A stretch of 64,000 bases of DNA from Agaricus subrufescens. Its lineage: Eukaryota; Basidiomycota; Agaricomycetes; Agaricales; Agaricaceae. The position numbers were made by a program, and so were the translations under genes. The stretch covers positions 496,001 through 560,000 of the forward strand of contig CM057068.1 of assembly GCA_029945375.1 (NCBI GenBank). The letters are read 5' to 3'. The notes below the pieces were generated by a model. It searched no databases and was not told where the DNA came from. It worked only from the letters and a program-made list of their open reading frames with translations. Below, piece after piece: positions 5,905 through 41,420 of this stretch. Position 1 is the stretch's first letter, and every line of letters starts with the position of its first letter.

Positions 5905-7759
5905 TTAGAAGGACATCATCCCGGATTGACCACCCTCTGCTATCTCAAAATCGGACCAACGGCCTCCATAAGCTCATATACTCCTTTCATGTCACACTCC
6001 TTGAACCCACCACGCAACACTATACCTCCAATCTTCATTCTTTGAAACTTCTCCACACCAGTTTTTCTTCTACCCCGAAGGGCATCACTGGATGATTGAA
6101 TGAGCTCGAGAATTGTGTCCTCTTTCATATGATATCTGTTTCGGAATTCCCACGTGAAAAAAGTCAACGATGGAATGAACTTCGGGTCTTGCAGCCGCTG
6201 AAGTGCGACGGAAAGGGATGTCATGTAGAAATGCGAGAAGATCAAATGTTCAACAGGGTGTTCAAATTGAAGAAGAACTTCTTTCTTCAGCTTGACTAGA
6301 ATTTGCTGGGGTAAGGAAAATTGGATTGTACAAGATCGCGGAAGGAAAGAGGTAAAAATCCGGAACGGTGTAGGGGAGTATAGGTGGCTACGGCTAAGGA
6401 CCTCCAGGTGTTGAAGAGCAGGAAAGCGATAAAACGAGAGAAGGATGTAATCCCATCCGGACAGGGCATGGTGCCATGTTAAGTGTTTTAGGTGGGGAAA
6501 GTATATCTTTCGAGCATAGTGATTGTCTGGCACCATATATCCGGCGCTGTGCTTCCCAGGATCTCGAAGCGAGAAACTGTTAAGATTGGGACATCCAAGG
6601 AGTAAGTCGTAACCAATGTTGATTGCAACCTGGTGTAGCGCAAGAGTCGTGAGTGATGACCAAGGCAGTAAGAACCCTAGTATAGACTCGAGCCTTGTAA
6701 TGTTCAGCAGACTACTCACCGACACTGCTATCCAATCACCGTTCTTGGCTATCTCAAAAAGAAGACTAGTGTTGCTCATAAGATCATATACTTTCTTCCT
6801 GTCAGGTTCGTCAGGTTCTAGATACCCCCTTATCTCGATCTTAAGCCTCCCAACACCAATGCCTTTTCTACTCCGTAGAATACAGTTGAATGATCGGGTA
6901 AGATTATGAACCTTTTCATCATCCAGAGAATAGCGAAATTGATCTTCCCATTTAAAGGATGTTAGTGATGGCAAGATCGTCGGCTTCTGAAGTGTCTCGA
7001 GTGCGACAGGAATGTTGGAGATGTCGAAATCTGAGCAAATCAACTGCTCGAAAGGATGTTCTATTCGCAAAAGACTTTTTCTCTCTAGTATTACATCATG
7101 CCTTGGAGAGCTGGAGAGCTGAAAGACGCGACAAGATTGTGGTAGGAAGGATGTGAAGCCGTGGAAGAGTCCAGGGGAATAGGTGTGGCCAATACCACCC
7201 CAATGAAAGTATCGAAGTACGGGAAAGCGATACAAGGAGAGAAATTGGTCATCCCATTCCGACTGGGCATGATACCACGTCAGATACTGTAGATGAGGAA
7301 AGTAAGTCTCTCGGGTATGGTGGCTCTTTCAAGGTAGCCCGCAGCCAAGGGCGAGCTGCAACGAATCATAACAGGAGAATTGGATAATGTTGAGGCATCC
7401 AAGGAGAAAATGAAAACAAAAGTTGATTCTAATCTAGGACAGGGTTGTAAGTGCCGACCAGGGTAGGGGCAACCCTGGCATAGACTCGAGCTCACCGATC
7501 ATGTCCGGCAGACCTGACAGAAATAGGTCCTGAGTGTCAAAATTGCTCCGATTTATGGTTCGTAACAAGTCAAAGGGAGGTTAATAGTGAGATTCTCTGT
7601 ACTGACACTCCTCTCGTATAGACTGCAAGAATTGTTGAAATCGGTGGTTTGTTTGGTTATATACGTTTCCAAGCCTAACTTGTATGAATTCGAACGACGC
7701 TCAGTTGTGCTCTTGGAATGTTTGCAGCAATCATCCCGCCTTTTCAAGGTTCGTGACTT
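5905..7759 (-). pseudogene. F-box pseudogene: two family copies fused, 5' end cut off by a mobile element
   Basis: Read on the minus strand. Homology begins at 7759 with a segment matching about residue 122 onward of the intact paralog (NLEKAG, stop, LLQTFQEHN, stop, ASFEFIQ). It continues through LPLPWSALTTL, a TAG, then IRINFCF, LLGCLN, HHTRETYFPHLQYL and an open stretch from 7235. This first copy reaches its natural C-terminal block FEIAKNGDWI but has no stop there. It runs straight into the middle of a second copy (AVSVSSLLNITRLESILGF matches DVSLTRLSYIIKLESIPGF). The second copy then continues to the family end, with a late frameshift. The open frame stops at 5940, whereas the family ending FEIAEGG...MMSF is in another frame to TAA at 5905-5907. 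So two tandem genes were fused, probably by unequal crossing-over. The missing N-terminal half is found at 28182-28490, beyond the 20.4-kb insertion. Confidence 0.85.
7753..7759. repeat. Target-site duplication, left copy (GTGACTT)
   Basis: The seven bases directly before the outer left end of the composite block. They are identical to 28175-28181 directly after its outer right end. The neighbouring F-box sequence is continuous when one copy is removed. Confidence 0.85.
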
Positions 7760-9219
7760 CAGGGATGGAATAAGCGGGGATAATCGGCAGCGACAAGTGT
7801 CGCAAATCGTGATAATTACCACGATTATCTGCTATGTGAGTATAATGATTATATAATCAAGAATTTGTGACCATAGAATATAATCATGCTTATATAATCG
7901 CGATTTGGCATATTGTGCTTATATAATTGCAATCTATGACTACATATATGACAATAGGATAATCATGATTATAAACTAATTACCACAATACGGATTATCA
8001 CGATTATTTAAGCATGCTATCCCCTCATCCGATAATCAAGATAATGATAATCACGATTATTTAATCGTGATTATATTACCTCATCCCATAATCAAGGTAA
8101 AAATAATCGTGATTATCATTATCGTGATTATGGGATCAACCAGTTCTGACTTCGGTATGGCAAAGGGACTCACCAAGTTGTGAAATGCCTAGTTGTCCCC
8201 CGACACGACAAGGCTCCTTTAGCTCCCTCATAAACTAAGAGCGGAGGTTCACCAGAGTTATCCCGATGTGCATGTTCGTTGGTCCGAGTATGGGGTGTGT
8301 GTGTGTGCATGCGTGTGCGTGTGGTAGAGAGAAAAGAGGGAATGTTACCATGTGACATGTGACATAGCAACTTGTCATCATTTGTTACGGAACAGTTCCC
8401 ACACTGTTGTCATCAAGTACTCTCAATGACGATTTTTACTATTAACAACTAAAAAATTCAATAGCCAGATAAGCTAAATAAATGCTTGACACTTTTACTC
8501 AATCATACTCGAGATTGTAGCCTACAACTCGCAAAGTCCCGGAATTGTGCTTATGGTTGTTTTGATGACAACAGTGTGGGAACTGTTCCGTAACAAATGA
8601 TGACAAGTTGCTATGTCACATGTCACATGGTAACATTCCCTCTTTTCTCTCTACCACACGCACACGCATGCACACACACACACCCCATACTCGGACCAAC
8701 GAACATGCACATCGGGATAACTCTGGTGAACCTCCGCTCTTAGTTTATGAGGGAGCTAAAGGAGCCTTGTCGTGTCGGGGGACAACTAGGCATTTCACAA
8801 CTTGGTGAGTCCCTTTGCCATACCGAAGTCAGAACTGGTTGATCCCATAATCACGATAATGATAATCACGATTATTTTTACCTTGATTATGGGATGAGGT
8901 AATATAATCACGATTAAATAATCGTGATTATCATTATCTTGATTATCGGATGAGGGGATAGCATGCTTAAATAATCGTGATAATCCGTATTGTGGTAATT
9001 AGTTTATAATCATGATTATCCTATTGTCATATATGTAGTCATAGATTGCAATTATATAAGCACAATATGCCAAATCGCGATTATATAAGCATGATTATAT
9101 TCTATGGTCACAAATTCTTGATTATATAATCATTATACTCACATAGCAGATAATCGTGGTAATTATCACGATTTGCAACACTTGTCGCTGCCGATTAATC
9201 CCGGCTTATTCCACCAATG
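7760..9219. mobile_element. Palindromic foldback element, copy 1 (left boundary)
   Basis: Inverted arms of about 657 bp (7760-8416 and 8562-9219) surround a unique loop of 145 bp. Each arm contains a terminal segment, a run of smaller AT-rich palindromes built on ATAATCGTGATTAT, a GC-richer stretch and a TG/CA-rich microsatellite (around 8291-8322 and 8657-8690). The sequence could fold into one very long hairpin. No transposase is encoded, so it is non-autonomous. A 66-residue frame recurs in each arm but is probably fortuitous. It lies inside F-box homology on its left side and joins cargo on its right side. Confidence 0.88.
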
Positions 9220-10381
9220 TCGTAACAAAGTTAGCATGGAAATGAGATGTTTCTACAAGTAGTACAGGATCAGGCCGTGCTATAAAATGCCTCTTATGAG
9301 AAATGATGAGGGAATTTTGGACGAGCAACAGCCTTAATGACAGCTTACACAAGAGGAAGTTTGTAACCAAAATTTGTCTGTCTGAAGTATATCAGCATAT
9401 AATCCTTAGGCATTCACTCGGCCATCAACGTGTAGAGCAACCTAACTCCAACATGCTTGCATATGCAAACTAGAGGGACCGTGCATCTCTCCAGCTCTTA
9501 ACGAAGCAATATGATTTCAACAAGGATAGGACACACGTAACAATTTATGTATCAACGCATAGAACTTATACTCCCACCTCAAAGTCCATACACATGAAGC
9601 ACGCGTACGGGGCAGAGTGTATGGTATACATGATACATAGGTGTCATGGCACTGAGGAGATGCCTTCACGGCTTTCGATCGCCACGCTTGGGAAATCTAT
9701 GCCCCCCCTGTCACAATAAGGTAAATTTATCTTGAAAGGCACTGGGCATTGCCCCTTATATACAAACCGAAGACCGCTTTCATCGTTGACATCTGACAGC
9801 TCTCGAGGAACGCAGTCCGTAGACATGGGATGTGATGTGTCGCATATACTTACAATCCAATCGGGATGAACCAAATGCTGTGATTTCTTTCCCAAACCTG
9901 TCATTAGAAAGTGGTCTGATTTCTGATGAAACGACATGCTCTCGAGGGAAGCCCTATATTTAGCAATAAGTCCGAGTCTTCCAGTGACACTGTCGAGATG
10001 CGATAGAGAGGATCAAACTAACAGTATAGGAACCTGACATAATTCCGTGATGGGCGAGGCTCAAATTCCTTAGCCGACCTTATGCCGGCAACTCGGTGGG
10101 AGAAATATGAACCTTTCGCTCATTGGAGGCGGGGTTCAAAGGATCCAGAATTCACCTATCGCACAGTCCTTATTAATACATTCTTGACTCATATCACTAG
10201 AAGTGTCGTCGTAATATACCCGAAGGAAGCAGTCTTCGCTGTTTCTTCTGCCGGGCTTTTTTCCCGAAAGTCACACTCGTAGATTCACCATACCCCTCCG
10301 AAGAGCGGCCATACAAAACGATACGTAAATACATAGAAACATTTTCTTCGCCATGTCCATATTCAAAGGCTAGGAGTATAA
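9220..10381. other. Cargo stretch without a recognised gene
   Basis: Begins at the inner edge of foldback copy 1. A minus-strand frame of 97 residues at 9644-9937 is open, but I recognise no family, codon pattern or splice structure in it. Nothing else is supported. Confidence 0.45.
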
Positions 10382-11472
10382 TCAAGAAGTCTTGCAGTAA
10401 CCGTCACTATTGGTGATGAAGTCGATACTTCCATCGGGCTGGGATTGACCACCCCTATTATCCGCATCTTCAGGGCCGTGACATTTACCGAAGAGAGCAC
10501 AAGTCAACTGAGTGCTACCATCCTGTTATAAAGTCAGCCAAGTCAGATGAAATGCTATTGGAAAACATACCTTTCCGTTGACGTCATGATAAGCTAAAAA
10601 TGTCGATGTCAATCACATTTTGTGGGGATAACCTGGTTGGAACTTACTATTCACGAAAGCGCATCCTTGGACCGAGTTGCACATAGTCTTACAGTCTAAA
10701 AAAGAGGATCATCAGCTATCCGACATCATGACCTGGAAAAGATTTTTTTTACCCGCAACGGTATCAACGAGACCGAATGTCATGTAATCGTCAGCTTGAA
10801 CAGCAGCAGTGATGTTGTAGAAAGTCGGGGTATAACCATCAGATGGTGGGGGAGGGGGTTGAGTAGTGTGCGGCGGAGGAGTCGTGGTATGGGGGGGTGT
10901 AGTGTGGGTAGGTTCTGTAGATGCGTCAATTAGTCGTAGATTTGGTAACAATAACAATTATATTACTGGTGGTAGTATGGTGCGGGGGGGAGGATGAATG
11001 GTGCGGAGGAGAAGAAGAGTGGTATGGGGGAGAAGAGGAGTGGTGTGGGGGAGGGGGAGGGGGAGAGTGATGAGGAGGAGGATGATACGGGGGTGGCGGA
11101 GGTGGTTTGTGGTGAGGTGGTGGAGGCGGATAAGTAGGCGGGCAATGAATTGTCCCTGGATATTGACTAAGGAACTTGCAATTATCCTATGAACTCACAC
11201 ATCAGTCACTCCGCACTAGGCATGAAAACTATTCTATCACTCACCGGCGTCAAACACGGAATATCGGGGTGCTTGTCTGGGTGGCCACCATAGTACCAGC
11301 CAGGCTTGCTACCAGACTGCCAAGGAGCCTTGGGCGAACCATAATGGTTACTGGCAGTGAGGTCAGTCCCGAAGTGGGCGGCTATCATAGAGGTCATAGC
11401 CTCAGCCGGTGCTGTAATTGCAGACGGGACCAAGCCTGCAATAATAGCGGCAACGAGAGCGGTGGTGCGCAT
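10382..11472 (-). CDS. Secreted protein with Pro/His-rich linker and C-terminal fruit-body-type Cys domain
   Basis: Function unknown; predicted extracellular. Six exons are readable (11472-11245, 11186-10967, 10914-10753, 10695-10648, 10593-10571, 10522-10382), giving 273 residues. A signal peptide (MRTTALVAAIIAGLVPSAITA) is followed by about 50 residues of unknown type, then a long low-complexity linker of proline, histidine, serine and threonine. The C-terminal domain has YMTFGLVDTVAGDCKTMC, QGCAFVN, YHDVNGK, LTCALFGKC, GGQSQPDG and ITNSDGYCK. This matches the neighbouring gene at 12365-13082, including internal exons of exactly 48 and 23 nt. The family resembles basidiomycete fruit-body-specific secreted proteins with a PAN/apple-like cysteine pattern; that name is from memory. 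TATAAAGC lies at 11554-11561, about 85 bases before the ATG. The gene lies inside the 20.4-kb insertion and looks intact. Confidence 0.8.
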
Positions 11473-11553
11473 TTTAAATGACTAGTTGAGCCTGAGGAGA
11501 GAAGGTGTAAGACGTGATTGTCCACAATGAACTATTGTAGTAGAACTGGCCTC

Positions 11554-11561
11554 GCTTTATA
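11554..11561 (-). promoter_or_regulatory. TATA-like box of the 11472 gene
   Basis: TATAAAGC on the minus strand, 82-89 bases upstream of the ATG. The spacing is similar to that of the neighbouring secreted-protein genes. Confidence 0.45.
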
Positions 11562-12364
11562 CTACATTTGTTGTTGCCTGTTGGGCCTCCAGATGTTGAT
11601 GAACAGATGACTGACTGTATACACGTTCGTTGAGAGAACAGGTGCACGTCAGTAGGGAGGCGATTTCAAGACCGAAACTGAAAGGGCTGCCCAACAATGA
11701 TCAAGGGCGGGCGTCTTAATAAGGCACGCTGTCAATCTTCTTTTATATCCGTCGTCAGATAAACTCGGACAACTCCCGAGTTGTGGCAAGTAGTCGAGAA
11801 AAAGAAGCTTTCGCAGGTCAACCACGGAGCAGGGTAGAATCACATACCTAATCTGGTCTTTTCAAAGCAGTTAGTAAAACATTAGACCCCGAGGTTCTGG
11901 GCACCGCAGCCAGAGCGGAATCGTTAAAGTCTAGAAGCTGTAGTGATTATTCGGGATACAGTGGGCCCGAATACATGCAGCGATGGGTATTTGGCCACTA
12001 GTCACATGCGACTACACGTGGTTAAAAACCCGGTCAAACGCCTAGGAGTGGCGTTTAAGCTCTCATCCGTCGAGTCTGGAGTGCCGCGCTTACCGTTCAA
12101 AACTTCAAAAGTACAGTGTAGATACTCATAGTTGAGATTAAAACAGGTCGAGGAAGGTAATGGCTAACGCCGAGAGTGCGCTAGAAGCTTCCTTTCTCGA
12201 CGGTTGCATCATTCAGGTCGAGTCAGCGTGGAACAATGATTGTCGAATAAACTTAGGCATTCAAAAACCGGCATCAATCAGAGTGGTATAATCCGTTCAT
12301 TCAACAGCCCAAAAATTTTCATCCCAAAATATATACATAGTTGCTAGTGTTTGCATATCATAAT
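11562..12364. other. Intergenic between two secreted-protein paralogs
   Basis: Upstream region of the 11472 gene and 3' flank of the 13082 gene, both minus strand. No gene was recognised. Confidence 0.45.
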
Positions 12365-13082
12365 TTAAGCCCGAGCTGGTGGGGTAGTTGGCTCAGTCGG
12401 ATCTGCGGTGCCAGTAGGGTCGGTAGCGGGATCGGTGGTGGGATCAGTGACGGGGTCGGTGGTAGGATCGGTGGTAGGATCGGTGGTGGGATCGGTGGTG
12501 GGATCAGTGGTGGTGGTAGGTGGGGTAACCACAGCTTTGCACCAACCATCACTGTCAGTGATAAAGTTGACTGTGCCGTCCGGTTGCGTTTGACCACCAG
12601 TATTTGTCAGGTCAGTTTCATCATGGCATCCGATGTAAAGCGAACAGGTAAGCTGTGTAGCTCCCCCCTACGAGGAAGTGTATGTCATGCATCAGCATCA
12701 TATTGAGAGTAACATCTCGGATGTGCGTACCTTGCCATTGTTATCGTGATAGCCTACACACAATAGTTCAGATATGTCAGAATCGCGGGGAAAATATACG
12801 CACTGTTAGCAAATCCGCAGGTCGGGACAGAGTCACAAAAGTCTGTGCATTCTGAAAAGATATGAGTTTATTGTTTGACAAGGGATGAAAAAGAGAAATG
12901 TCACCATGTGTGGTATCAAAAAGCCCGAAGGTGATAAAATCGGTGCCTTGAACGGCGCCAGTTTGGTCGCTGAAAACCAATGTGTAATCTCCAGCTGCGT
13001 TGCTGTGACGAGGAACAATAGCCGCGCTTGCCATAGAGGCAGCAATGGCGATGGAAGAGACAAGAGTGGTAGAGAACAACAT
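12365..13082 (-). CDS. Fruit-body-type secreted Cys-domain protein with TDPT-repeat tail
   Basis: Function unknown; predicted secreted, 178 residues in four exons (13082-12905, 12851-12804, 12753-12731, 12652-12365). A signal peptide of about 20 residues (MLFSTTLVSSIAIAASMASA) is followed by one compact domain. It contains YTLVFSDQTGAVQGTDF, TFGLFDTTHECTDFCDSV, TCGFANSYHDNNGK, LTCSLYIGC, GGQTQPDG and FITDSDGWCK. The protein then ends in a Thr/Asp/Pro tail built from repeats of TDPT and closes PTTPPARA. The domain and the two small internal exons (48 and 23 nt) match the neighbour at 10382-11472, so the two are tandem duplicates that differ in domain order and accessory sequence. TATAAGA is at 13155-13161. 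Splice sites are all canonical GT-AG and no lesion was found. Confidence 0.85.
12411..12513 (-). repeat. In-frame 12-nt coding repeat (TDPT units)
   Basis: Tandem units close to GGATCGGTGGTG on the plus strand encode repeated Thr-Asp-Pro-Thr near the C-terminus of the secreted protein. The units differ mostly at one or two bases, giving V/A for T in places. Copy number is likely to vary between strains. Confidence 0.75.
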
Positions 13083-13154
13083 TACTGAGGCAGGAGAGGG
13101 ATTGCAAACAGAGAAGTTCCTGTTGACTGAAGTTCATCCTTGAAACCCTACCCA

Positions 13155-13161
13155 TCTTATA
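13155..13161 (-). promoter_or_regulatory. TATA-like box of the 13082 gene
   Basis: TATAAGA on the minus strand, about 75 bases upstream of the ATG. Confidence 0.45.
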
Positions 13162-15579
13162 CTCCTCAAAGATAATATGTGAGAACTAGAGAAAGCAGCA
13201 AGTGAACTCGAATGAAAACTGTTGTCCTTGAGATTGCTTCTTTTTCGTACCTTGGGAGCTGCATGGTGATGACTAGCTGTCCGAAAATTTCATGATTGCC
13301 ATGCATGTACTTGAGTTATCCGATGGATCTCGTGGCCGTATGTAAACAATAGTGTGCCGGGCGTATTTGTGAAGCGATATGGAATCGAAGTCTTGTATGC
13401 CTGAAAATTATCTCAGGTAAATTATCAACCTGGAAGAAAAAGTTTTGAGATTGATCGGAACATGGATGCGCACCTCTGTATCTCCGTTCCCAGATCGACC
13501 TGCCTCGACGTTTCTCGGGAAGATCCCGATATCGTCACGTGAAGGTTGATGTTCCCTGGGAATCGCTCATGCCGGGAATAGTCGCGTATTTGAAGGCACA
13601 AGGTTCAAGTACCTGAAACCGATGCAGGCCTGTCAAAGCAGAAAAATCTAGCTGTCCAACTGGAGGACACAAAGAAAAAAAAAGTCCTGCCGTTGTACTT
13701 GACGTGAGAATAGCTTGGGATATAGAGGGCTAAATTGTAGCAGGCGCGAGAACGGACGGGTCTAGGACGGGAGGAAGTACCGTCGAACCCACTTTAAGCC
13801 GACAGAAATGTCGGCGATTGTGGGAACCCATATCCGAACCTAGTAATTACATCCGCCATTCATCGTTCTCACCTACCCCCCACAAAATGTCAGGACACAC
13901 GCGGAAGTAGACGTATATCGGCCGTCCTCAGCCCGAACGTGACAAATGCCATAAGAAGCCATAGCATTGGATTGCTCGAATATGGCACAGACGGAACTGT
14001 GAAATGCAATGCCTTTGTGCCTGTGACTCCGTTGGTTCTCCGCGAATCTCCAGTCTACAAGAATCGCATGGATTATACTTGGCATATGTCTTATCTGGTC
14101 TTTCTGCCTTGAGCCAGACCGAAAATTTTCTTTGATCAGCATGGTCCCTTGGCCCAGGCCTATACCTTGCTGCATGTCTTATTCCCATCGATGTCACACC
14201 CCTCGGACGTCGTCTATCATTGCTTGCTGGTTTGGGTGGGTCAAACTCAGTCCTCCGACGAAGCATGCGTATCAGATATATTTCTACACTTCACTTCTTT
14301 CCTCCGATGTTGGCGGTATGCATTTGTCCTCTTTTTTGAACGCAGCTTCTTACCCCTCTATGGTTTGCCGTGGTTTACCACGACTTAATTTGTCCATCTA
14401 GGAATACTCTGGAAAACATCGTTCGATAACCTATTACTTCGCGCAAGCGCTGCTACCGCTAGCATTACACTGGAGATACTTTGCTAAAGGACTCGATGGC
14501 TAATATCAACCTCAGACAGGCAGAACAACTTGAGCTTTGCCAAAAATCTGTTTGATCCTGTATTCAGTATGAGAACGCGTCCTACGCTAACACTACTATC
14601 AGCTGGTATCCCTTATCCGTATCCTTTCACCCTTGCAATTCCTTCTTGCGCCTAAATAGTAATTGAAATTCTCCCAAGTTTAGGAGCCCCGACGCAACAT
14701 CAGAAATCTATCCTCTGTTTCGACACATTACTCACGCCTCGAGCCTTTTCCTCACCATCCCAAGTTCTCAGCCCCATCTTGTCATCAAAAGCATTCTTTG
14801 TCTATTATCCTTTTATGCCAGTCCTGAATTATATGATCTCAAGAATCTATCTACGCAAACGCCGGCCCACAGGGTATCATGTGACGAGGCAAAGATGGAT
14901 TAATGCTGTGAAAGACATTGTTTCCTCGAGGTTAATAACGCGCAGGTTCAACCCTAGGAGGCGATGTCCGCGGAAATGACCCAACAAGAAGATGTATTTG
15001 AAGACAGGAATGCTCTAGAATAACTTATAAGAGTTAAGCTCTTACTTCGGACATGGATGTTCTGACCTGGATTCCCACAGATGCCGAAAGAAGTTACCAT
15101 TGGTTAGATCTTACTTTCAAGTAGCACCAGCTACTAACCTAGAGCTATATATGACACACTATGTTAATTCTTCATAATTAAAGGGTGCGTTCGTAGGGCG
15201 AAATGATAACACTTCAAATAAAGCTCGTTGTTGCCTACCCAGCAAAGTAAACACTTTATCCTATTTGACAACGGGCGCTCATGAAACTCTAAACCGGGAT
15301 ACATGAGTAAGCCACTCTTTGAACGTCAAGCACTTAATGTTAAGCCTTCCATTCAATTTGCCCGCAATGTGTAAGATGATCTATCTGCCGTGAGTGACTC
15401 TCAACAATGTTGTGGAGGATCGCAACTTGTGGAGCCACGCAATAGAATATTACCCGTTTTCGATGATGTGATATCAATTCAAAGTAATTGGTGAGTAATT
15501 GACCCCACCGCATAGAGTTCTACAAACAGAAGACACAGGTATACTAAGTAGTCCGTTGTCCGTTCCCAAAACAATAAGC
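13162..15579. other. Cargo stretch without a recognised gene
   Basis: Several 60-110 residue frames exist on both strands around 13870-14400 and 14780-14980. None shows a recognisable family, signal peptide or splice pattern. Part of it may be decayed coding sequence. Confidence 0.4.
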
Positions 15580-16132
15580 TTATTCAATGATGACGGTGTT
15601 ATTGAGGGTCTCCAACCACGGCTGGAGACCGGCCTGTATATTCGCCGATGGTCAGTGTCAATGTATTATCTTCTGTGACGTCATCGCTTGACTTTTGAAG
15701 ATGAACTTACCCCTATGAGTGCGAAATGTGCAACACCAAGTTGTGCTCTGCCCTTGGGTAAGTTTGATGGTAGCGTGACGGTAAAGTTCTGGTAGGGTTG
15801 TACTGTTGGGCGTTTGGGATCTCTCTGTGGTTTGAAGTCGCCGTTATAAAGGATACGACCCAGTGTGTCAGCCGGGTCGATGCAAGGAGATTCAGCGCAA
15901 GACTGGATGCCAACCGCCACCGCCACGTCTAATGATGACGATTGGAAGTTCTACATATCGATTAGTTGACGGGTTCAAAAGGACTCAAAGAATAGCTCCT
16001 TACCGGGAGTACGATCTGGACGGTTGTTTCCTGGCCAGCAGTAAGTCTAGCTTGGTCAGGAGGGTATCCAATGAAAACGCGTTGAGCGGTTACGACAGTG
16101 AGGCAGGCGAGAAGAGGGGCCACGAGTTTCAT
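15580..16132 (-). CDS. Small conserved secreted protein (basidiomycete family of unknown function)
   Basis: Three exons (16132-16004, 15950-15711, 15633-15580), all split in phase 0, encode 140 residues. A signal peptide of about 16 residues (MKLVAPLLACLTVVTA) precedes the mature protein. The core shows VFIGYPPD, TAGQETTVQIVLP, VAVAVGIQSC, PCIDPADTLGRILYNGDF, PYQNFTVTLPS and KGRAQLGVAHFALIG, and it ends LQPWLETLNNTVIIE. I recall this as a common small secreted family in Agaricomycetes, with a beta-sandwich-like pattern and two cysteines, but I know no function. The start is fixed by the signal peptide and by TATAAAAAG at 16173-16181, about 45 bases upstream. It lies within the 20.4-kb insertion and appears intact. 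Confidence 0.82.
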
Positions 16133-16172
16133 GATGAGTGAGGGGTGGAGTACTACCGAAGAACACTGGAGG

Positions 16173-16181
16173 CTTTTTATA
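16173..16181 (-). promoter_or_regulatory. TATA box of the small secreted protein gene
   Basis: TATAAAAAG on the minus strand, 41-49 bases before the ATG at 16132. The match to a core promoter is good. Confidence 0.5.
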
Positions 16182-19100
16182 GGCCTCATTAATGATGATG
16201 TAAATCTTGCTTTAACGGGCATTTCTATCCGTCGAATGTTATTGCGGTGTCGGGGCACCACAGGGTGAAATCAATGCCGCAGAGAAGAGGGCTGTGATCA
16301 TGGCCGTCAACGGTCGATGCCGAGCGGTGAAACCGGCTTCAGGGCCAAGGACTAGCCAAATCGACCCTCCATCTGCAAAAGAGGGCTAGTCTCAAACCAA
16401 TGTACATCTGAATTAGCACTGCTTTATGGGTGAGCGACAAATTTAACAAACACGCTGCACCCTTGATCGGAGACCGCGGAAAATCCCTGCATCCTCATGT
16501 TCTAGGCCAGTTCCCCAGTGCGCATGTAGTGTGTTAATAAGTTGAGAGACTAACTGAAGTTTAGAAGTGCACACTCCGGGTCAAAAATCAAGTGGTCAAA
16601 TTGCAGTCCTTCCCTGAGGGGGCGGAGCTTCTGACATATTCTATTGATATTATGCCGCCAACCCTTTTCTCAAGAGCGCCACCGCCGAAGTTGGAGTCGG
16701 CCGCAATTACCAGAACGAGTCCAATGAGACAAAAATAAACGCATTAGCAGTGGGTGGTTTCGCCTTTTAGGGTCGAATTTTCCCTTTCAATCCCTTAATG
16801 ATGCAATAACTAGTTGACTCGCATAATGTACCTTATCCGCCACTGCCCGTAGCAACTGCACACTATCGTAAACACACGATATATCCAAGTATATCCTGGA
16901 GTAGCTCTATCGTTTTACCCAGCTCAGCGGCTATTTATAAGGATCGATTCTTAACACTTTATACTATATATCGAGTGCCAAATTTTGTAATCATAGAAAA
17001 AGAATTCAAGATCGTTGGACAGCTTATAATAACCCGGTATTAACATTACCCTACCTGCATGCAGAAGTCATTTTCAGGAAAAGGAGTCTTGATGCCCCAA
17101 AGACATGATTCAGTGGTTATAACAACACTGGTCATGCTCATGACTGTAGTGATGATTGGCGAGCCTAAAATCTATCTTAGGAGTCGCTTATAGCATCATA
17201 TCGGAGTTGTGGTCAAAACAGGCCGATGATATAACAGCAATGGCGAGAAACCGCGGTGCGCCGCCAGAAACTCAGCAATTGAGAACAACCTAATTTCAAT
17301 CCATGAAGGAAGAGGCGTGACACAGGAGGCCTCCTGAGCTATGGAGGATATTGGGTGAGAGACTTAAAAGGGAACCTCGAATGTATAGACGTTCACCAAA
17401 TGGAGATCCATATACGGGGCACTGATGATGACAGCACGGACATTCGAAATAACTACACTCTCACAGTCTCAAGTTTCGCCATGATGGTCTGAGCACGAAG
17501 GATTCAGTTTGAAGAAAGGGTAAATGTTGACACGGGTTAGATATATGACAAGCCATTTATGAAACGAAAACTGAAGGATGGAAATAGGCGACAACCCGAA
17601 AAATGGATGTCACTTTTAACCCCGAGCGAATCGAGGCCAGGCCGTGACGGGCGGAAAACCCGCAACACCGTGTAATTTGGATGACTATCCCACTGTACGA
17701 AGAAACAAAATTGTGTATCTAGAACCACAGGCACCCTTATTGTGTCTATTATAGCAACTATTCGGGAGATGAAATCAAACACTCACTCTTTCCCCTTCGC
17801 CGGGCAGAGAAGGAGATGTGGTAGAAAGAGATGTTAGCATTACCCCCGCACAACACGCTTGGGGCAGGATCAATTACGTGGATTTTTTTTTCTTGCACAG
17901 CTGCAGATGAACAATAGATACAATAAGCTGAAGAGCATATTTTTGTTCCTCCATTACTTTGCAAAATGGACGCAAATGCTGTTCGGTCACTCAACATTCC
18001 CGTAACCATGTTTGACATATGGGATGACATCATTCTATGTTAATTCTGAGCCGTAGAAGTCCAAGGGGTAAGGCTTGGGTAAGGCTACTACTAACAAAGC
18101 CCCCTGCGGCATGTACTGAGCCAAAGAGTGTGGTAGCCGGATCGAGATTATCGAACGTTAGACATTAATACAATTCAGAATGATGACAGTTTCGTCCCTT
18201 ACCTCCCTACCACTTGAGCGCAGACCCTGCGCCGTTATCTTCGTAGAACGAGAAGACAAAGGTATCAAACATTGATACCGCCACAACTCGGATTCTTAAA
18301 CGCACCGTACTTTTGAATGTTTAGGGGAGGGTGGAAACTAACTAAACTCATGAGGGGATGACAGTAGAGGCTTCATGGTTACTTGTGCAATTCAGGGGCT
18401 GTTCTAGGTATTTCGGGTGATTCATCAACCTGATCAAACATGGGGAGAAAACGAGTTTTTCAACAATGTGGCGTCGGCGGAACCCCCTCGCTGCTTCAAA
18501 ACCTGGGGCCAAAGACTAGCATTTAGTAACAGAATATCAGAAGGTACGCAGTGCAAAACAAAATTCGAGCCTTGTAGATTCAGATAGGAAACGACTGTAT
18601 GTTAGACGATGAGCAGAAGGTTGAAGCAATAGGATTCAAATAGCAGCCGAGAAAAAGGATTTGTTTGATCGAATGTCCGAGCCCCTTCGCGAGCGATTGT
18701 CTGCAATAGTTTTCGGGGGGCATCCCTGCGATAATTCTTTGCATGTAGACTGTTGTCACTTTGCACTTTCCAAGCCATTTGAACACACGCTGTTCTCCAA
18801 GTGGATTGGTTGAGCCAGCCGATGCTTAGTAAGAGACAATGATGATCGGCTGTATCGGGCATAACCGATCCACCTCCCAAATAGTTTTCCGTTACTCTGG
18901 ATGGTACTCCCGGAATTACGAGCAGTTGGCCAGCGTTTACTGGAGTTGCCTGACCGAATATTAATAAGTGTGCCGTTACTTCAATAAATGCTATTTCGTT
19001 CGTGGTGGGATGAGGTGATGTGTGATTAGGTTAGTTGCACATCAAGAGTGAGTGAGAGGTATCAGACAGAGAATAGTTGATGAGGCTCTGGAAGAAACAG

Positions 19101-21333
19101 GAAACAGAGGTGGGTGATGGTCACAGCTCTAGGTTGTCGGTGAGACTCAGGGGGGAAATGCAATCCAAAATTGTTCATGGAACTCTTCCCTCAAATCAGC
19201 CTACATTCTAGAAGATTTGAAGTGCAAATGATTGGAGAAGCTGTGTCAATGAGATCTTTACTGGGCGCAGATTTTGGGTCGTGAGGTTGCCTACTCAGAA
19301 AGGCAGTACTCTGTGGAAAGCTGGAATTCTCCGGCGTTTGCGAAGCATGATTACTTTGTAACAAAACACCAGAAAGCCCGCCACCGAGGAGAGAACTCAA
19401 TACTAAATTTTCACCATTCAAACGTGCTTGACCAGGCCAATAAGTAATATTCGATTGTCCTTACCTTACTAAACGTAACAAATTCATTGAAAAAGGCTCA
19501 TTGAACATCACAAACGAACCCTGTGGAGCAGATGTACAGCGATCGCAAAAGCGATACCGCGCCCTGGATTGTGAACTACCTCCTACTGGAACTCAGCTGA
19601 GTGCAATTTGTGGCGTCAGAGTTCCCAGTTTCTGTATATCTGCAGTCCGTCACGGTCGCATGTGCGTCTGCTATTGCTTCAAATGTGCAGCATCACGGGC
19701 GGCCTTCGTTTGAGGGTTGTATTTTATAGATGAGCCATTACGGTCTCTACATTTTGTAGCTGTGAATATTCATCCCTTTGTTCTTGCTCTTCCAATTTGG
19801 AGGATTAATTTGCTTATGACTTTCAAGCGGTACATCCAGCCATTAAAAATTCTGACCGTCAGCCTGGTTTTTCAAAGCGTTTTAAGTACATATGACCAAA
19901 GGTCTTTTTTCTCCAGTTGCGTCGAACTAAACTAAAGCTTTTGTCGAGGCACTCTTTGCATCCCCTTTCTGTTTTCCCCACAATCAAACCATTGGTGTTC
20001 TGAGCATCAATGAAGAACGGATAAGTGAGACGCATAGTAATAATCAGTGAAGGAATTAATCAATAGTACGGCCCCACTGGCAACACTTCGGTAATCTCCT
20101 TGATCAATCTTTTCGCTTCTTGTGTATGTGATAGGGGTTCAAAGCTGAAACATGAAAGAAATACCTACGACACCACTATGATATAACAACAGAGATTGAT
20201 GGACTTTTTTCGTTCATCAAGAAAAGTTCAGATCTTCACATTTTCGGCTCCCTGTGTCATCTATAGAAGGTGACCATCTCGCAAATCTGGGGCTCGAAAC
20301 AGTTTTCTGTCATTTCTTATTGCCTTTCTGGTCAACACTAGCAAGAAGCTAATGGCCGAAGGAAGTGTTTGTGCATTCTTTCTTCTAATCGTAGCATCTG
20401 TGCCCAACCTCTCAGCGCACGGACGACACTATAGATATATCTAATGCGATTGGATTTGGCTTATTATACCTGGGAATTTTAGATCAGATATTACATCCTT
20501 CGATGCTTGAGCAGATTTCAGTCCAATGTCACATGTCTTGGCAATTTTTTTGCACCCTTTGGTCATTGACTGGCAATAAATATTTCATTCCAGGCTGAAT
20601 ATCTGTACCCACAACAAGTTATCGATTTTGCCGCCCAAAGTGGTATGCCAAACTATATCTCACTCGTGTCATAGCCCGACGACTTGAAGAGTAGTTCCCA
20701 CAGCCAGCCAGGCGCGTGAAAACCATAAATCAAAATTGGCCTGCCATCAGAAGCTGCCAGTTTCTGCAGATGTCGTCCGACAGCTTCTGTTGATTTGTAG
20801 CCCTGCCCGGCACTGGGCGTGTCGCCCAGAATGTGTCCTTCGTCTTCTCGGCTACGTAGTTGCCCTCGTCTTTTTGTCATGGGATCGCGGAAGAGATAGT
20901 GAAGTTCAAAATAGTGGCAGTGCAGAAGGCTAATCCAGCTGGTAGTAATAGTCACCACAGGTGGGGAAGTGTCAGTAATATAAGGGTCTTCATCCACCCT
21001 TTTTTCCACATTGGGTCACATTGTCACACGACCGAGAAATCGCGCGACCCTCCACTGATCATGATGATGACATGCCGGGGCATCAATCTATTGACTTATG
21101 AATTGTTTGATATTGACGTATCCATTGCTATCCGGTCGAGCTGGCAATCCGGCCAGTCAACTCTGGCAGCCAATCTTTCTCTAACCCGCTATGTATGTAA
21201 CATAAACCCAATACAGTGGGTGCTTCCAGTTATCAGTTTATCCAGGCTTGCTAATCATATGCCCCGACCCTCAGGGATGTGGTTTTTGGTAAGGTGGTGA
21301 TTTTTACTATCATTCTCATTCCTGACCGCAGTC
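16182..21333. other. Long cargo stretch without a recognised gene
   Basis: About 5.2 kb in which I could not support any gene. Short open frames at 17537-18033, 18580-18880, 19191-19935 and 20653-21300 have no recognisable motifs. A 118-residue minus-strand frame at 20653-21009 is the longest clean one and remains unidentified. Given the decayed hydrolase gene next to it, much of this may be relic sequence. Confidence 0.4.
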
Positions 21334-22293
21334 ATGAGTTTCTGCAAAGAATGTATCCCCGGTGTGCAATCTCCGTAGAAGATTATCATGCTCCGGCACT
21401 ATTTTAGCTTTTGGTGTTGGACATGAAGGGACTCCTGAAGGTAAGACCTGTCATCCACTACTCAATGGTATGTCTGGTTCCTCGCTGATGATTTTGCTCG
21501 GAACGACTTCTATGTACGAAGCATCCATTCTACAAATGCCTGCACAGCCATCAATTGTCTTATAGACCGTGATCCCCGATTATTTCAATGGAGACCCTGT
21601 TCCAGCCGACGCCATCGCCATAAGTCAAGCTGTCCGTAACGGCACATATTTCTTCCAAGCAAGGCTTGGCATTGACACGCTTTATTCCAGACATTCGGTA
21701 TACAAACATAGTTCGTTAATCGCACTCCCTACAAAGCCCTGCCATTTCTGAACAAAGTTATTGTTTGGCTTAAGCTGCAGAGTGTGAAGCACTTCGCGTC
21801 TATTGGGTTTTGTTCTGGTAATACGTTCTCCCTTCACCGAAAGAATATTGCCGTTACCTTCAATAGCAAATCGCCTCTTCCCAGGTCGCTACACTTTTGA
21901 TCTCGCTTTTGAAAATATCGAGGTAGGAGTTGTTCGCACCCGTTTCTCTTCAGAGTTCCCCAGGATTTGGACCTAGGTCTCTCCTCAAAGCTTGGAACTT
22001 GAATATTAATAGGACATGTACTGAACAACAACACAGCGTTATATGAAGCACTCCAAATCGCCTCTGCTAATCGACGTCAGTTGCACTACAGCTGCACAAC
22101 CCTCCATGAGTCACAAGAAAAAGTCGATAAGATTCTTGGCGATTCAAAGTCCGTACCGGGATACAAGAGAGAGTAGTGTGAAGGATGCACATATGGTTTC
22201 GCTGTCCGAGGAGACATGAGTGGCCCAGGAGTTTGAACCGGCAAAGAAAGATCTTTCAAGGTTACTGTGAAGTGGTTCCTCAAGTATTTTTGA
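21334..22293 (+). pseudogene. Dienelactone hydrolase family pseudogene
   Basis: Family members are alpha/beta hydrolases with a Cys-Asp-His triad. The reading starts MSFCKECIP at 21334. An intron 21362-21407 leads to FGVGHEGTPEG, the usual N-terminus. A large part of the next 40-50 residues is missing. Then come LADDFARNDFY, an intron, VIPDYFNGDPVPAD, FLNKVIVWLKLQSVKHFASIGFCSG (nucleophile Cys), an intron, GRYTFDLAFENIE, HPFLFRVPQDLD, CTTLHESQEKVDKIL, GYKRE, EGCTYGFAVRGDM and FKVTVKWFLKYF. Lesions: the missing segment near 21440-21490, TGA at 22000-22002, TAG at 22174-22176, TGA at 22234-22236. The catalytic His of the THGFAVRGD motif is Tyr (TAT at 22192-22194). The order of blocks and the intron positions are still family-like, so this is a decayed gene rather than a chance match. 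Confidence 0.82.
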
Positions 22294-23581
22294 ACTTCAA
22301 GTCCAGGATACTCGTAAGTGATCTGACCCAAGTGTCCGTAATGAAAATATGTGAATATCGACACGTATTAATACCGATATTGAGATTGAGACCGATCTCT
22401 GCTGTAGGCCTTATAATAAATGTCGTCTGATTGTCCAAGGCTAATTCGAGGCTTCGGGCATGCTTCGGGCAATGCCCGAGCCGTTATGTTCGGCTATCCG
22501 ATATCTTCTTTTTTCGCGCATCGGCAACTCGGCAATTTACTTTTCACGCTATCACAGTCTCTTGCTATTGGTAGGCCGCGGTGTCTACATGGCACCAGCT
22601 TTTGGGAAGCACGGAGAAAATACAGAGATAGATCTCTTGATGCTTCTTAGAGCACGTTTTCAACTTGTACAGCCAAACAGAGAAAAAGCTGATTGTCAGA
22701 CACCGATGCGTTCGGCTCTGTAAACTGATGATCTATCTCATTTGTAGTGGGATGTTTAAGCTGCAGTGCTCACCGTTAGACGTTTAACCCCCCGCACAGC
22801 ACATCCCTTGAAGGAGTGTACTGCTATTGTGGCGCTGCTCCTCCGTCGTTCAAAATTTACTTTGCCCATCGATTAAGCTCACGACGAGGTCGGGTCAGAC
22901 TAACGCAAAATACAAACTTCGAACAACAAAACTGCCACGTGCATACTGTTATCGTTCTTGCGTCGTTTCATTTGGGTATTCCCATATTATGGCTCCTTGG
23001 ATTCCCTGCCTGATGGGCTGGCAACGACTCTGATCGAAACAGTGCTCGTAACTATTTTTCGAGTCCTTGAAACTAGAAACTGCGGGAATCTAGAAGCTAG
23101 AAGCTCATGCCGTTGATCTATCCTAGAGACGTCTATGGTTGTGTGATTCGAACAATACGTAAACATTACATTTAGCCTTCTTCTAATCGATTCATCTACT
23201 CAAATTCCCAACCTCCTGAAACCATGTATCCCGCAGGCTATTTATCATAGATTCATCACACATTGGCGCACGTCGTCAACAGCACATGATGGTCAGAGTG
23301 AGAAAAAATCCTGCCATAATTAGTTCAAGGCTTCGGCATCTCGGGCATCCCTGATTCTCATGTGGTCGGGCTAAGCTCGGGCTCATATCCGAACTCCACC
23401 TGTTGATGTATCACTACTTTGAGGCGGTACCAGAACTGATTAGTACAATCACAGAACAAGATCAGAAACCTGACGTGAAGCGGTTTCCGGCGGTAGTTAG
23501 CTTTATATTCTTGCGCGGTGATATCGTCTCTCCCAGCTCACTTTGCCACGCCCCCCATCCTACCCCTTCCCACTATCCATA
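22294..23581. other. Cargo intergenic with TCGGGC-rich patches
   Basis: No gene was recognised. Two patches rich in TCGGGC/GCCCGA words (22440-22495 and 23325-23395) share the phrase AAGGCTTCGG/GAGGCTTCGG. They may be remains of a dispersed repeat. The last 200 bases are the likely promoter of the transporter. Confidence 0.4.
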
Positions 23582-25773
23582 ATGTCAGTGCCGGAAACGA
23601 AGGGAACCAACATCAAACCGGACGTAGAATCCGATACAAGAAACCTCGACGATGGTAGCGATGCCTCTGTGCCGGAGATAGACGGTGGATTGAATGGCTG
23701 GTTGACTGTGGCTGGCGCGTAAGTCAACGACAACGTTTTCAGCCATTACAACGGAGCTTTGTTCTTATACTCTCTATAGATACTGTATCCTCTTCTGCAC
23801 CATGGGGTTCGTTGCTGTCCCTTCATTTCGCAAGCATATCTCATAATGTACCTTAGCTACGTCTATTCCTTCGGCGTGTATCAAGGTAAATGAGCCACTG
23901 GCAGGAGGATACCCATGAAGATTCTAACGAAATTAAAGACTTTTATACGCGCATATTTCTCGAAGGCTTGAGCCCAAGCAAAATCTCGTACGTTTTGGGT
24001 TTTATTGGAACCACAAACTTATGCTTATGCCAGTCCGATGGCAGATGGATGGGGAGCTTCCAACTGGCACTTCCCTTTGCTCTAGGTCCGTTGGCCGGGA
24101 AGCTCTTTGCTCTAGGACACGCTGGACTGGAGATCAAATCTGGTTCATTGCTATATGTTTTCTCGTATGTCTCTTTCGTCAGTATTTCCGAAGCGAAACC
24201 CTCAAAAATTCTCTGTAGAGTATTCATGTTATCGCTCGCCAAAGAAGGGCAATTTTACCAAGTTTGTATCATTGTCTATACGTCTGACGATACTGACATA
24301 TCTTCAAGATTTTCCTCAGCCAAGGCGTCGGAATGGGCCTCGGAGTTGGCTTTATATTCACACCTACTACCGCTGTCATTGGTGTGCATTTTAAACGAAG
24401 GAGGAGCTTGGCCCTGGGAGTTGCGATGAGTGGAATGGGGTTTGGCGCCCTCGCATTTCCTATCTGTTCGTCAAATTTCCGCTTCCAGCTATACTTCATT
24501 GCTGACTTAAATACCTTCGTTTCCCTTTGTCTCACCAGTGATCAAGTAAGGAGACCTCTCTTTTGAGGCAGAATTGATCTGATGATTTTCTTATTCGTAT
24601 TTCAGTCAGCTCCTACCAAAAATTGGGTTTGCTGATACTGTGAGAGTATCGGGTTACGTTGTTCTCGGTTGTTTGGTTGTAGGTAACCTGTTGATACGGA
24701 TACCGACGAGAGTCGCGAAGAAAGCGGAACCCGTTGATGTCGCGTCGTTCTTCCGCGATCCTGTCTATTTGTGGTATTTATCATCGTGAGTAACACAAAT
24801 TTACGCCTGGTTTGAGAGTTGACTGACTTTGGAAAAGATCTTTTCTAGGCCTTTTGAGCATCTACTTCCCAAGTCCGGCCTTTTTCTTCTATTTCAAAGC
24901 GTGACTCTCATTGTTTCTCAGCCTTCTTCCTCCAGCTTTATGCCATAACACACAATATTGACCACACACTCGCATTTTACACCGTAAGTAGAATCTCAAT
25001 TTACGGGTACCAGGCATCTATTCCCCTGGTGATACAACCAACCACCTATTATCCTCCCATCTGTTAGCCCTACTCAGAACGCTGATGTTCTGTTCTTAGA
25101 TCGCGATACTCAATGGTGTAGGGGTCTTAGGACGCGTTTTCGGTTCCGTGTTAGCTGATAGATATGGGCCTTGGAACATGATAATTTTAGCTAGTCTGGG
25201 TTCCACGCTCAGCGTTTGGCTCATACTCGCCATGTAAGTAAATCATTCTCATTATAGTTTCATTATGCTTACTCTGTTGCGTTGCTGTAGTCACGACGCA
25301 GCAAGCCTTGTAGTCATCAGTTGCATTTACGGCATTTTCTCTGGAGCATGCAAGTCATACCTCAGATAGGATTTCTTTATTAGTATACTAAGTGAAGTCC
25401 TTACAGGGCTGGTGATTGGCGTATCGGCACTCGTAACACTTGCGCAGACACCGGCCGAAGTGGGGTGAGTGCTGTTCTTCCATTGAGAATTTTCTCTTAT
25501 TAATTTCCACTAGTCCTCGAATGGGCATTGCATATGCATTTATGAGCATTGGTGCCCTCATCGCCGGCCCTATACAAGGCGCTTTATTATCACAGAAGTT
25601 TACTTGGATAAGGCCAGTCACTTTTAGCGGGGTGAGTGGCAGAGTTCGACTGCTAAACCAAGAATTATTCTAACTTCAAAACCAACGCGCAGGTTGTGAT
25701 GATAATAGGGACGATATCAGTTATTACTGATCGAATGCTCTTTGCAAAGCGGAAGGGTACACAATGGGTATGA
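23582..25773 (+). CDS. MFS transporter, monocarboxylate-transporter (MCT) family
   Basis: Predicted 12-helix plasma-membrane symporter; the substrate cannot be told. The start MSVPETKG is followed by an acidic cytosolic tail and the family entry motif DGGLNGWLTVAGA. The first helices then appear across short exons (YVYSFGVYQ, DFYTR, GLSPSKIS, FALGPLAGKLFALGH). Next come FMLSLAKEGQFYQ, FLSQGVGMGLGVGF, HFKRRRSLALG, a central loop (RIPTRVAKKAEPVDVASFFRDP), LYAITHNIDHTLAFYT, LGRVFGSVLADRYGP, PRMGIAYAFMSIGALIAG and the final helix to TGA at 25771-25773. Around 14 exons are needed. Most junctions are canonical, but some 5' sites are weak (GTTCGT at 23807). No disabling lesion was identified. It is the largest apparently intact gene in the insertion cargo. 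Confidence 0.8.
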
Positions 25774-26609
25774 TCATGCTGTTCAAGCACCTATACCTCG
25801 TTTCAACCGACATCACATCCCATCATTGCCACTATCGTGGCTGAATACATACTTCACGCCTCACTCTTTCCACTTGCCACACCAGATAAACTATGCTCCT
25901 TTCCAGGAACTTTCGCTATTTCGTTATTACTTGCAGATCCATCTCCCAGCATCCTATTATTACCTGTAAAAATAGCAATACAGTCGTATCCTTATAGGCT
26001 CCTTCTTGCATCATTTATCATGTTTCACCTTAAAAAAAGATGAGAACAATCATTAAACCCTCAAACCAGAGAACGAAAGATATCAATCGTTTGATATCCA
26101 AAGATATATGCGAGATACTCGACGACTAAGTTCCATATCATTCAATCCATATATCACCTGATGACAACCTCAGACATCCCGATGGTATCTTTCCATGACG
26201 AGAAGCACAGCACCATGTGGATTACCTTGGCCTTGATTGATATTTGCGTTTGTTTACAAAAACTAACACTCACACAATCACTGGAAAGTACCCTGGTCTC
26301 CTCGTATTACTAATCCCTATGCCAGCCTCTGTTCGCGGCCACTCGCACGCGGCTTGCGCTGAATAAGACCTGGGTCTGCGCTCTGGTGCTTACGAAGCTA
26401 GCGATGTCCACGCCGCCAGTCTCCCGCTTCTGGCGTGATATTGTTCTGCTAGTGAAGTTGGTTCGTCTTAGTAAGACGGCCGCTATATATAGATAGAAGT
26501 AGAAATCATTAATCATCCACACCATTCAGACTCTGATCATACCCAGATATATAACCATAGTGCGTACCGCGGCTTTCTTGTCCTCTGCGTCTGGTTGCCC
26601 AATCCAAGC
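25774..26609. other. Cargo intergenic, no gene recognised
   Basis: Contains the 3' flank of the transporter and the presumed promoter of the truncated gene at 26610. No other supported feature. Confidence 0.45.
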
Positions 26610-26721
26610 ATGCCTGGTTTAAATGGCTGGCACCCAGGTGAACGCCTCATCCACGAGAAACTCGACCTTACCGGTCCAGTGGTCTTCAATTACACTGCGA
26701 TTCAAGGAGACCTCCCCCCTG
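26610..26721 (+). pseudogene. 5' stump of a gene resembling the pyridoxamine-phosphate-oxidase/flavin-binding family
   Basis: ATG at 26610 opens a frame with GWHPGERLIHEKL, LTGPVVFNYTAIQGDLPP. This resembles the N-terminus I recall for fungal flavin-binding, PNPOx-like proteins (GWHPGE...EGDMPPEH). The coding similarity ends exactly where foldback copy 2 begins (CAGGG at 26722), and the frame stops a few codons into the element. The remainder of the gene is not at the inner end of foldback copy 1 (9220 onward). It was therefore lost or left at a donor site. The family call rests on about 37 residues. Confidence 0.6.
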
Positions 26722-28174
26722 CAGGGATGGAATAAGCGGGGATAATCGGCAGCGACAAGTGTCGCAAATCGTGATAATTACCACGATTATCTGCTATGTG
26801 AGTATAATGATTATATAATCAAGATTTGTGACCATTATAATCATGCTTATATAATCGCGATTTGGCATATTGTGCTTATATAATTGCAATCTATGACTAC
26901 ATATATGACAATAGGATAATCATGATTATAAACTAATTACCACAATACGGATTATCACAATTATTTAAGCATGCTATCCCCTCATCCGATAATCAAGATA
27001 ATGATAATCACGATTATTTAATCGTGATTATATTACCTCATCCCATAATCAAGGTAAAAATAATCGTGATTATCATTATCGTGATTATGGGATCAACCAG
27101 TTCTGACTTCTGTATGGCAAAGGGACTCACCAAGTTGTGAAATGCCTAGTTGTCCCCCGACACGACAAGGCTCCTTTAGCTCCCTCATAAACTAAGAGCG
27201 GAGGTTCACCAGAGTTATCCCGATGTGCATGTTCGTTGGTCCGAGTATGGGGTGTGTGTGTGTGCATGCGTGTGCGTGTGGTAGAGAGAAAAGAGGGAAT
27301 GTTACCATGTGACATGTGACATAGCAACTTGTCATCATTTGTTACGGAACAGTTCCCACACTGTTGTCATCAAGTACTCTCAATGACGATTTTTACTATT
27401 AACAACTAAAAAATTCAATAGCCAGATAAGCTAAATAAATGCTTGACACTTTTACTCAATCATACTCGAGATTGTAGCCTACAACTCGCAAAGTCCCGGA
27501 ATTGTGCTTATGGTTGTTTTGATGACAACAGTGTGGGAACTGTTCCGTAACAAATGATGACAAGTTGCTATGTCACATGTCACATGGTAACACTCCCTCT
27601 TTTCTCTCTACCACACGCACACGCATGCACACACACACACCCCATACTCGGACCAACGAACATGCACATCGGGATAACTCTGGTGAACCTCCGCTCTTAG
27701 TTTATGAGGGAGCTAAAGGAGCCTTGTCGTGTCGGGGGACAACTAGGCATTTCACAACTTGGTGAGTCCCTTTGCCATACAGAAGTCAGAACTGGTTGAT
27801 CCCATAATCACGATAATGATAATCACGATTATTTTTACCTTGATTATGGGATGAGGTAATATAATCACGATTAAATAATCGTGATTATCATTATCTTGAT
27901 TATCGGATGAGGGGATAGCATGCTTAAATAATCGTGATAATCCGTATTGTGGTAATTAGTTTATAATCATGATTATCCTATTGTCATATATGTAGTCATA
28001 GATTGCAATTATATAAGCACAATATGCCAAATCGCGATTATATAAGCATGATTATATTCTATGGTCACAAATCTTGATTATATAATCATTATACTCACAT
28101 AGCAGATAATCGTGGTAATTATCACGATTTGCGACACTTGTCGCTGCCGATTATCCCCGCTTATTCCACCAATG
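26722..28174. mobile_element. Palindromic foldback element, copy 2 (right boundary)
   Basis: Arms 26722-27373 and 27519-28174 around a 145-bp loop. It is nearly identical to copy 1 apart from a few substitutions and small indels, for example a 6-base shortening near 26831. One substitution is present on both arms of this copy but on neither arm of copy 1 (T at 27111 paired with A at 27781, versus G at 8154 paired with C at 8824). Its left end cuts the stump gene at 26610-26721. Its right end is followed by GTGACTT and F-box sequence. Confidence 0.88.
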
Positions 28175-28181
28175 GTGACTT
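28175..28181. repeat. Target-site duplication, right copy (GTGACTT)
   Basis: Identical to 7753-7759. Together they bracket the 20.4-kb block. Confidence 0.85.
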
Positions 28182-28490: not shown

Positions 28491-28499
28491 AGTAATTAG

Positions 28500-36918: not shown

Positions 36919-37054
36919 GCTATTCGGAGGCCTAATTTACGGTCTCTCCTTTACAATATATTGCTTGTTGGCTAGCAAGCCGTAATTTAATCCGAGATAA
37001 TCTAACGACCGGTCTCAGTGATCTGCGAATGAAATTATGCCGTGCCAGTGAGCC

Positions 37055-37517: not shown

Positions 37518-41420
<3,903 letters not shown>

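Follow-up and report, generated by a model that had tools for sequence, protein, structure and literature searches.

Organization of the Locus

The DNA considered here, referred to as the window, is a stretch of 64,000 nucleotides from the basidiomycete Agaricus subrufescens (assembly GCA_029945375.1, contig CM057068.1, here C12, positions 496,001 to 560,000 of the forward strand). Inside an F-box pseudogene of this stretch sits a block of 20.4 kb, in which two palindromic elements, L on the left and R on the right, enclose 17,502 bp of other DNA, the cargo (Table 1). The heptanucleotide GTGACTT borders the block at its outer ends only, where it forms a perfect duplication (7/7) across the whole unit; the chance of a common 7-mer at two fixed positions is 6e-5. 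Seven base pairs is also the duplication length found for other elements with ends like those of L and R. When the single elements are tested in the same manner, 6 of 7 positions mismatch across L and 5 of 7 across R. The inner flanks, TCGTAAC on the L side and CCCCCTG on the R side, resemble neither each other nor GTGACTT. At its outer borders, the block shows a proper left end (CAGGG..) on one side and a proper right end (..CCAATG) on the other. The original prediction, made from the letters of the window, had described this arrangement, and both copies of the duplication, the mismatched inner flanks and the block itself are confirmed.

Table 1. Position of the block, its parts and its target within the window
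Feature	Position	Strand	Description	Basis
F-box pseudogene, C-terminal piece	5955..7752	-	C-terminal piece to ~6729, then second F-box-like stretch	Paralog alignment
Left target-site duplication	7753..7759	+	GTGACTT, 7 bp	Sequence
Left palindromic element L	7760..9219	+	1,460 bp; end CAGGGATGGAATAAG at 7760, end CTTATTCCACCAATG up to 9219	
Cargo	9220..26721	+	17,502 bp; 99.57% identical to C8:2952792-2970308 (minus strand)	
Nis1-family open reading frame	15684..15950	-	PF19271, E 3.2e-10, over curated cut-off	Pfam
Likely transporter gene	24297..25670	+	Two exon-like stretches, 24297-24563 and 25437-25670; MFS_1, E 5.8e-6 and 0.017, both below curated cut-off	Pfam
Interrupted gene start	26610..26721	+	37 codons, interrupted by R; C8 copy continues uninterrupted	C8 comparison
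Right palindromic element R	26722..28174	+	1,453 bp; same orientation as L, ~99% identical to L	
Right target-site duplication	28175..28181	+	GTGACTT, 7 bp	Sequence
F-box pseudogene, N-terminal piece	28182..28496	-	N-terminal piece	Paralog alignment

When the two flanks are joined with a single GTGACTT, the resulting F-box sequence aligns to a paralog, P1, across the junction (RKINLQVTNLEKAG vs KTIDMRIRNFQKAE). From about 7 codons before the junction, 166 of 355 positions are identical to P1 in one frame, while the N-terminal part (34/101 identical) aligns in a different frame. The claim that the block lies in one F-box gene thus holds in that both flanks belong to one F-box sequence, in the right order and aligned with P1, but the left flank continues into a second F-box-like stretch and the gene is a pseudogene today, as judged from in-frame stops on both sides of the junction and from the change of frame. 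There are no grounds for saying that the insertion disrupted a functional gene.

The Palindromic Elements

Both elements begin with CAGGGATGGAATAAG and finish with CTTATTCCACCAATG, their end sequences being CAGGGATGGAATAAG and CATTGGTGGAATAAG; the two ends of each are imperfect inverted copies over about 50 bp. In L, two arms of 642 nt, 100% complementary, surround a loop of 145 nt, so that long inverted arms make up most of the element, as in foldback elements. R has the same design, and its arms differ from each other by a 4-bp indel and two mismatches, apart from the few terminal bases that always set a left end apart from a right one. The alignment of L and R contains 18 differing columns, five of which lie past 9219 and hence outside the elements, which leaves 13 over approximately 1.46 kb. 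A genome search with L returned at least 80 matches; among the matches listed, L and R are the only full-length near-identical copies, and the contig of L carries one partial relative (91%) and one short fragment (95-98%).

Two details of these palindromes can be added. At 8154/8824 in L and 27111/27781 in R, both partner positions have changed and each palindrome is still perfect, which suggests arm-to-arm correction after the separation of L and R. Moreover, the right end of R (28114-28174) has GATAATC, as in left ends, at the place where L and seven long elements of the family have GATTAAT; such correction may have reached nearly to the terminus of R.

A Family of KDZ Elements with the Same Ends

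A 15-base end pattern was searched in the whole genome with at most one mismatch, using the reversed pattern as a control, and gave 65 matches against 18. The 29 exact matches show just two spellings: 17 are left ends and 12 are right ends. Every exact right end has a left partner, a thirteenth left end (on C1) is partnered by a right end with one mismatch, and four left ends are unpaired. Seven of the resulting pairs are long, spanning 14.2-33.9 kb, and all seven contain a match to the KDZ transposase. The terminal sequences of L and R are therefore those of KDZ-transposase-encoding elements (14-34 kb) in the same genome. Five long elements were compared with the window and have in common with it, among the matches listed, only the terminal 44-62 bp. 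The KDZ transposase search of the genome gave 94 matches, none of them listed within the 20.4-kb block. In one element of 14.4 kb on C8 (C8b), ten chosen frames were scanned, and KDZ (PF18758, 2.4e-25) and CxC2 (PF18803, 1.1e-28) domains were found.

The same element holds, on the minus strand, a 356-codon frame (C8:809380-810447; L029:6113-7180) in which an Spt5 NGN domain (PF03439, 2e-7) passes the cut-off and KOW matches are weaker, a transcription-elongation-factor-like gene within a transposon. The two KDZ elements at C8:781678-796055 and C8:803768-818143 (L027-L030), 7.7 kb apart and in opposite orientation, share 99.95% identity over 14.4 kb. A perfect 7-bp duplication flanks one of them, and none the other.

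The 13 paired elements differ in their duplications: three have an exact 7-bp copy (CTCTTAA, ATCATGT and AGCTCGA), carried by C8b, a 15.9-kb element on C6 and a 357-bp element on C1, two retain 6 of 7 bases, one retains 5 of 7, and seven, L and R among them, have none. This count covers paired ends; it leaves out the four exact left ends without a partner and diverged foldback relatives with mismatches in the end pattern (e.g., on C3 and C7, and at C8:2574660 and C12:1526732). The combination of a 7-bp duplication and CA..TG termini is thus exact in the block and in the three elements named. Both traits are published for Kyakuja, whereas 8-bp duplications are given for Zisupton and one Dileera family (PMC12730594, in the part of the article available). 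The ends of L and R are probably of the Kyakuja type, a label that follows from these two traits, the transposase having matched only the shared model PF18758. None of the three Tet_JBP matches in the genome falls inside elements with ends of the L/R type.

The original prediction proposed to look for similar blocks elsewhere in the genome, and no second composite appeared among the end pairs. Two unusually long pairs, of 33.9 kb on C5 (C5:1649523-1683460) and of 21.8 kb on C12 (C12:1452904-1474688), neither of which has a target-site duplication, hold KDZ matches like the other long pairs and were rejected as composites. The 3.9-kb pair at C12:1146228-1150138 (L037) was also rejected: the 2.4 kb inside it are a repeat that matches the genome at least 44 times, this copy included, and the pair represents a related foldback element with a nested repeat, in which 6 of 7 duplication bases are present.

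Origin of the Cargo

The copy of the cargo on C8 was located via the gene interrupted by R and confirmed with 1.5-kb queries from either edge of the cargo. Comparison with C8:2949001-2973000 gave a single collinear match, from 9220 to 26721, whose limits are exactly the inner ends of L and R; of 17,497 aligned positions, 17,422 are identical and 75 different (99.57%), with nine gaps. C8 contains neither L nor R, and its two sites read ..GATAC/TCGTAACAAA.. and ..CCCGCTG/AGCATG.. (the slash marks the site); the right site, spelled CCCCCTG in the block, is CCCGCTG in the present C8 copy. The first 36 residues of the interrupted gene are unchanged on C8, and a search of solved structures with the 37-residue piece gave no match. 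The C8 copy has 17 stop-to-stop frames of 100 codons or more, and 16 of these are still open in the block.

Each 1.5-kb edge of the cargo has two near-identical copies in the genome, one in the block and one on C8, together with one or two weaker relatives on C8. When the 17.5-kb cargo was used as a DNA query, 10 of the 12 matches listed, among which neither the block itself nor its C8 copy appeared, were within C8:2.88-3.00 Mb, and this contig looks like the home of the gene families in the cargo. C8 is considered the source side because the gene cut at 26721 continues there and because of this concentration of matches. The last 300 bases of the contig contain neither TTAGGG nor CCCTAA; therefore, the source is not called subtelomeric.

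The identity of the two cargo copies is also at the level that two alleles might show, and the palindromes are long and known from the assembly. One could thus suspect an assembly artefact, in which a lone element in the F-box sequence was joined by mistake to a C8 haplotype that carries two of them. Such a fault is very unlikely, because both flanks tested are single-copy: the right F-box flank matches at 100% only at itself, besides one partial paralog at 82% in the genome search, and the 1.5 kb beyond the left site on C8 occur once. This is as in a haploid assembly, in which a second C8 allele is not expected. Furthermore, there is no N in the window, and the 44 contigs of the assembly add up to 44.65 Mb and include one of 6.1 Mb.

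The size and the ends of the block would also fit a single long KDZ element whose internal genes have decayed and whose palindromes serve as long terminal repeats. This reading retains practically no probability: it is refuted by the presence of the interior, which is host DNA, on C8 and by the lack of any KDZ match listed in the block, and each palindrome possesses a left end and a right end of its own.

Probable Movement of the Block

A single jump is the likely way in which the block came to lie in the F-box pseudogene, and a KDZ transposase, probably of the Kyakuja type, would have acted on the outermost end at either side. According to this model, L and R would have inserted separately on C8, in the same orientation and 17.5 kb apart, at the sites TCGTAAC and CCCCCTG, in a haplotype outside this assembly. 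A transposase supplied in trans would then have brought L's left end together with R's right end, and the whole 20.4 kb would have been cut out and inserted at GTGACTT on C12. Ordinary mating and meiosis would finally have brought the block together with an uninserted C8 allele, leaving two copies of the cargo in the strain; the uninserted C8 copy is explained in this way, the block presumably coming from the other haplotype. Macrotransposition accounts for the duplication of family length at the outer ends, the unmatched inner flanks, the exact limits of the cargo, and a block length that falls within the 14.2-33.9 kb of the long KDZ end pairs. Three features by which macrotransposons are recognized in sequence are found here: two copies of one element family enclose DNA that is not transposon, a duplication of family length flanks the unit as a whole but neither element by itself, and the cargo is traced to DNA of another locus.

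The main competitor of this model is homologous recombination. A lone palindromic element would first have entered the F-box gene, producing the GTGACTT duplication, and a unit derived from C8, such as a circle that arose when L and R recombined on that contig or a repair copy, would have been added inside it later. Outer duplication and unmatched inner flanks would look no different. Palindromes are prone to breakage and recombination, and the seven of 13 family elements without a duplication, which include L and R, are what frequent exchange between copies may leave behind. On the other hand, three insertions and one or two recombinations are needed here, compared with two insertions and one jump in macrotransposition; L and R are still required on C8; and the matches listed, a lower bound, include just two near-identical full copies. 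Altogether, a recombination origin is considered unlikely, although clearly less so than an assembly fault.

Several points weigh against macrotransposition. Neither the C8 haplotype with L and R nor an empty F-box site was found in the genome. Exact duplications are a minority in the family, as given above, and since so many of its elements have none, exchange between them may be common, so that an origin by recombination is not far-fetched. Finally, 53 of the 75 substitutions in the cargo crowd into its first 7 kb, a skew not expected from one clean event except where the haplotype of origin was already a mosaic. Nonetheless, joint movement of two foldback elements lacking a transposase with 17.5 kb of host DNA, as the original prediction proposed, is supported and is the best-supported reading; its one-step character is what we infer from the arrangement of ends, flanks and cargo. 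Beyond that proposal, the analysis traces the cargo to its source on C8, points to KDZ elements that share the ends of L and R as the probable source of transposase, and recognizes the 7-bp duplication as a family trait.

Cargo Genes and Neighboring Repeats

The Pfam search covered 19 open reading frames of the cargo, out of 155 listed with at least 50 codons. Besides the Nis1-family frame, it returned the two MFS_1 stretches, which likely belong to one transporter gene, and for the remaining 16 of the 19 frames nothing above the Pfam cut-off. A cargo of secreted-protein genes and a transporter had been claimed: the transporter is likely, with matches below the cut-off, and for the secreted proteins a single family match, Nis1, was obtained.

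Outside the block, a direct duplication (28616-29805 and 38028-39224, 90-99% identical in pieces) starts about 435 bases past the right target-site duplication. A second direct repeat (31074-33795 and 34236-36949), with a spacing of about 3.15 kb and an identity of 76-89% in pieces, likely represents tandem gene copies.

Implications and Relation to Known Systems

Source, target site and a candidate transposase are all present in one genome here, and the locus provides a sequence-level case of a multi-gene host segment that was probably carried along by two minimal DNA transposons. By a slight margin, we favor the broader view that mushroom-type fungi carry true composite transposons, in which about 50 bp of Kyakuja outer ends would suffice for a trans-acting KDZ transposase to move, in one jump, whatever host segment of 14-34 kb lies between two small palindromic copies. 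If so, gene clusters could be copied to new chromosomes with no transposase on board, several complete genes travelling together, as a Nis1-family gene and a likely transporter would have done here. A review of 2019 placed transposons near fungal gene clusters and regarded their direct role in cluster relocation as still to be demonstrated (PMC6431247, in the part available). If the present case is confirmed, KDZ elements would offer basidiomycetes a way of duplicating genes to dispersed sites. Every pair of small copies in linkage would then be potentially mobile as a unit, and such pairs are open to direct searches and tests.

Among known systems, the bacterial composite transposons Tn5 and Tn10 resemble the block in that two short elements mobilize the intervening DNA via their outer ends, as proposed here. 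They differ in that a flanking insertion sequence encodes the transposase, whereas neither L nor R encodes one. The Starship elements of ascomycetes, described after the 2019 review, are likewise large fungal units with a cargo of host genes, but each is a single element with a tyrosine-recombinase captain gene, while the block is delimited by a pair of transposon ends. The Ac/Ds macrotransposons of maize are a further case, for which the work cited is reportedly that of Huang and Dooner from 2008.

In maize, as in the block, neighboring transposon ends and the intervening DNA move as a unit: the available part of one account reports a 28-kb macrotransposon that was excised, leaving a modified 8-bp duplication, and another of 10.3 kb that was reinserted with the original copy kept (PMC9910405). 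Ac, however, is a hAT element of a plant, with 8-bp duplications, and was followed genetically; the block has KDZ-type ends, 7-bp duplications and near-perfect palindromes without transposase, and is known from its sequence. In Drosophila, the Ising TE is described, again in the available part of the source, as moved by flanking foldback elements (PMC6431247), so that host DNA lies between two foldback transposons, as here; it measures hundreds of kilobases and involves another element family, compared with the 20.4 kb and KDZ-type ends of the block, and that part of the source mentions no case from fungi or from KDZ elements. The ends of the block share their traits with the Kyakuja elements of mushrooms, namely 7-bp duplications, CA..TG termini and a KDZ transposase in the family; two families of Laccaria encode TET/JBP and are reported, in the part of the article available, without terminal inverted repeats (PMC12730594), whereas the ends of L and R are imperfect inverted copies of about 50 bp.

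Among the titles listed in searches of the open-licence literature, none reported a KDZ or fungal composite transposon. The designation of the block as a eukaryotic counterpart of a bacterial composite transposon is supported as far as its composite nature is concerned, but is not new in itself, the maize Ac and Drosophila Ising TE cases having preceded it. What sets the block apart from these systems is its KDZ/Kyakuja type, its fungal host, its near-perfect palindromes without transposase, and the identification of the source locus.

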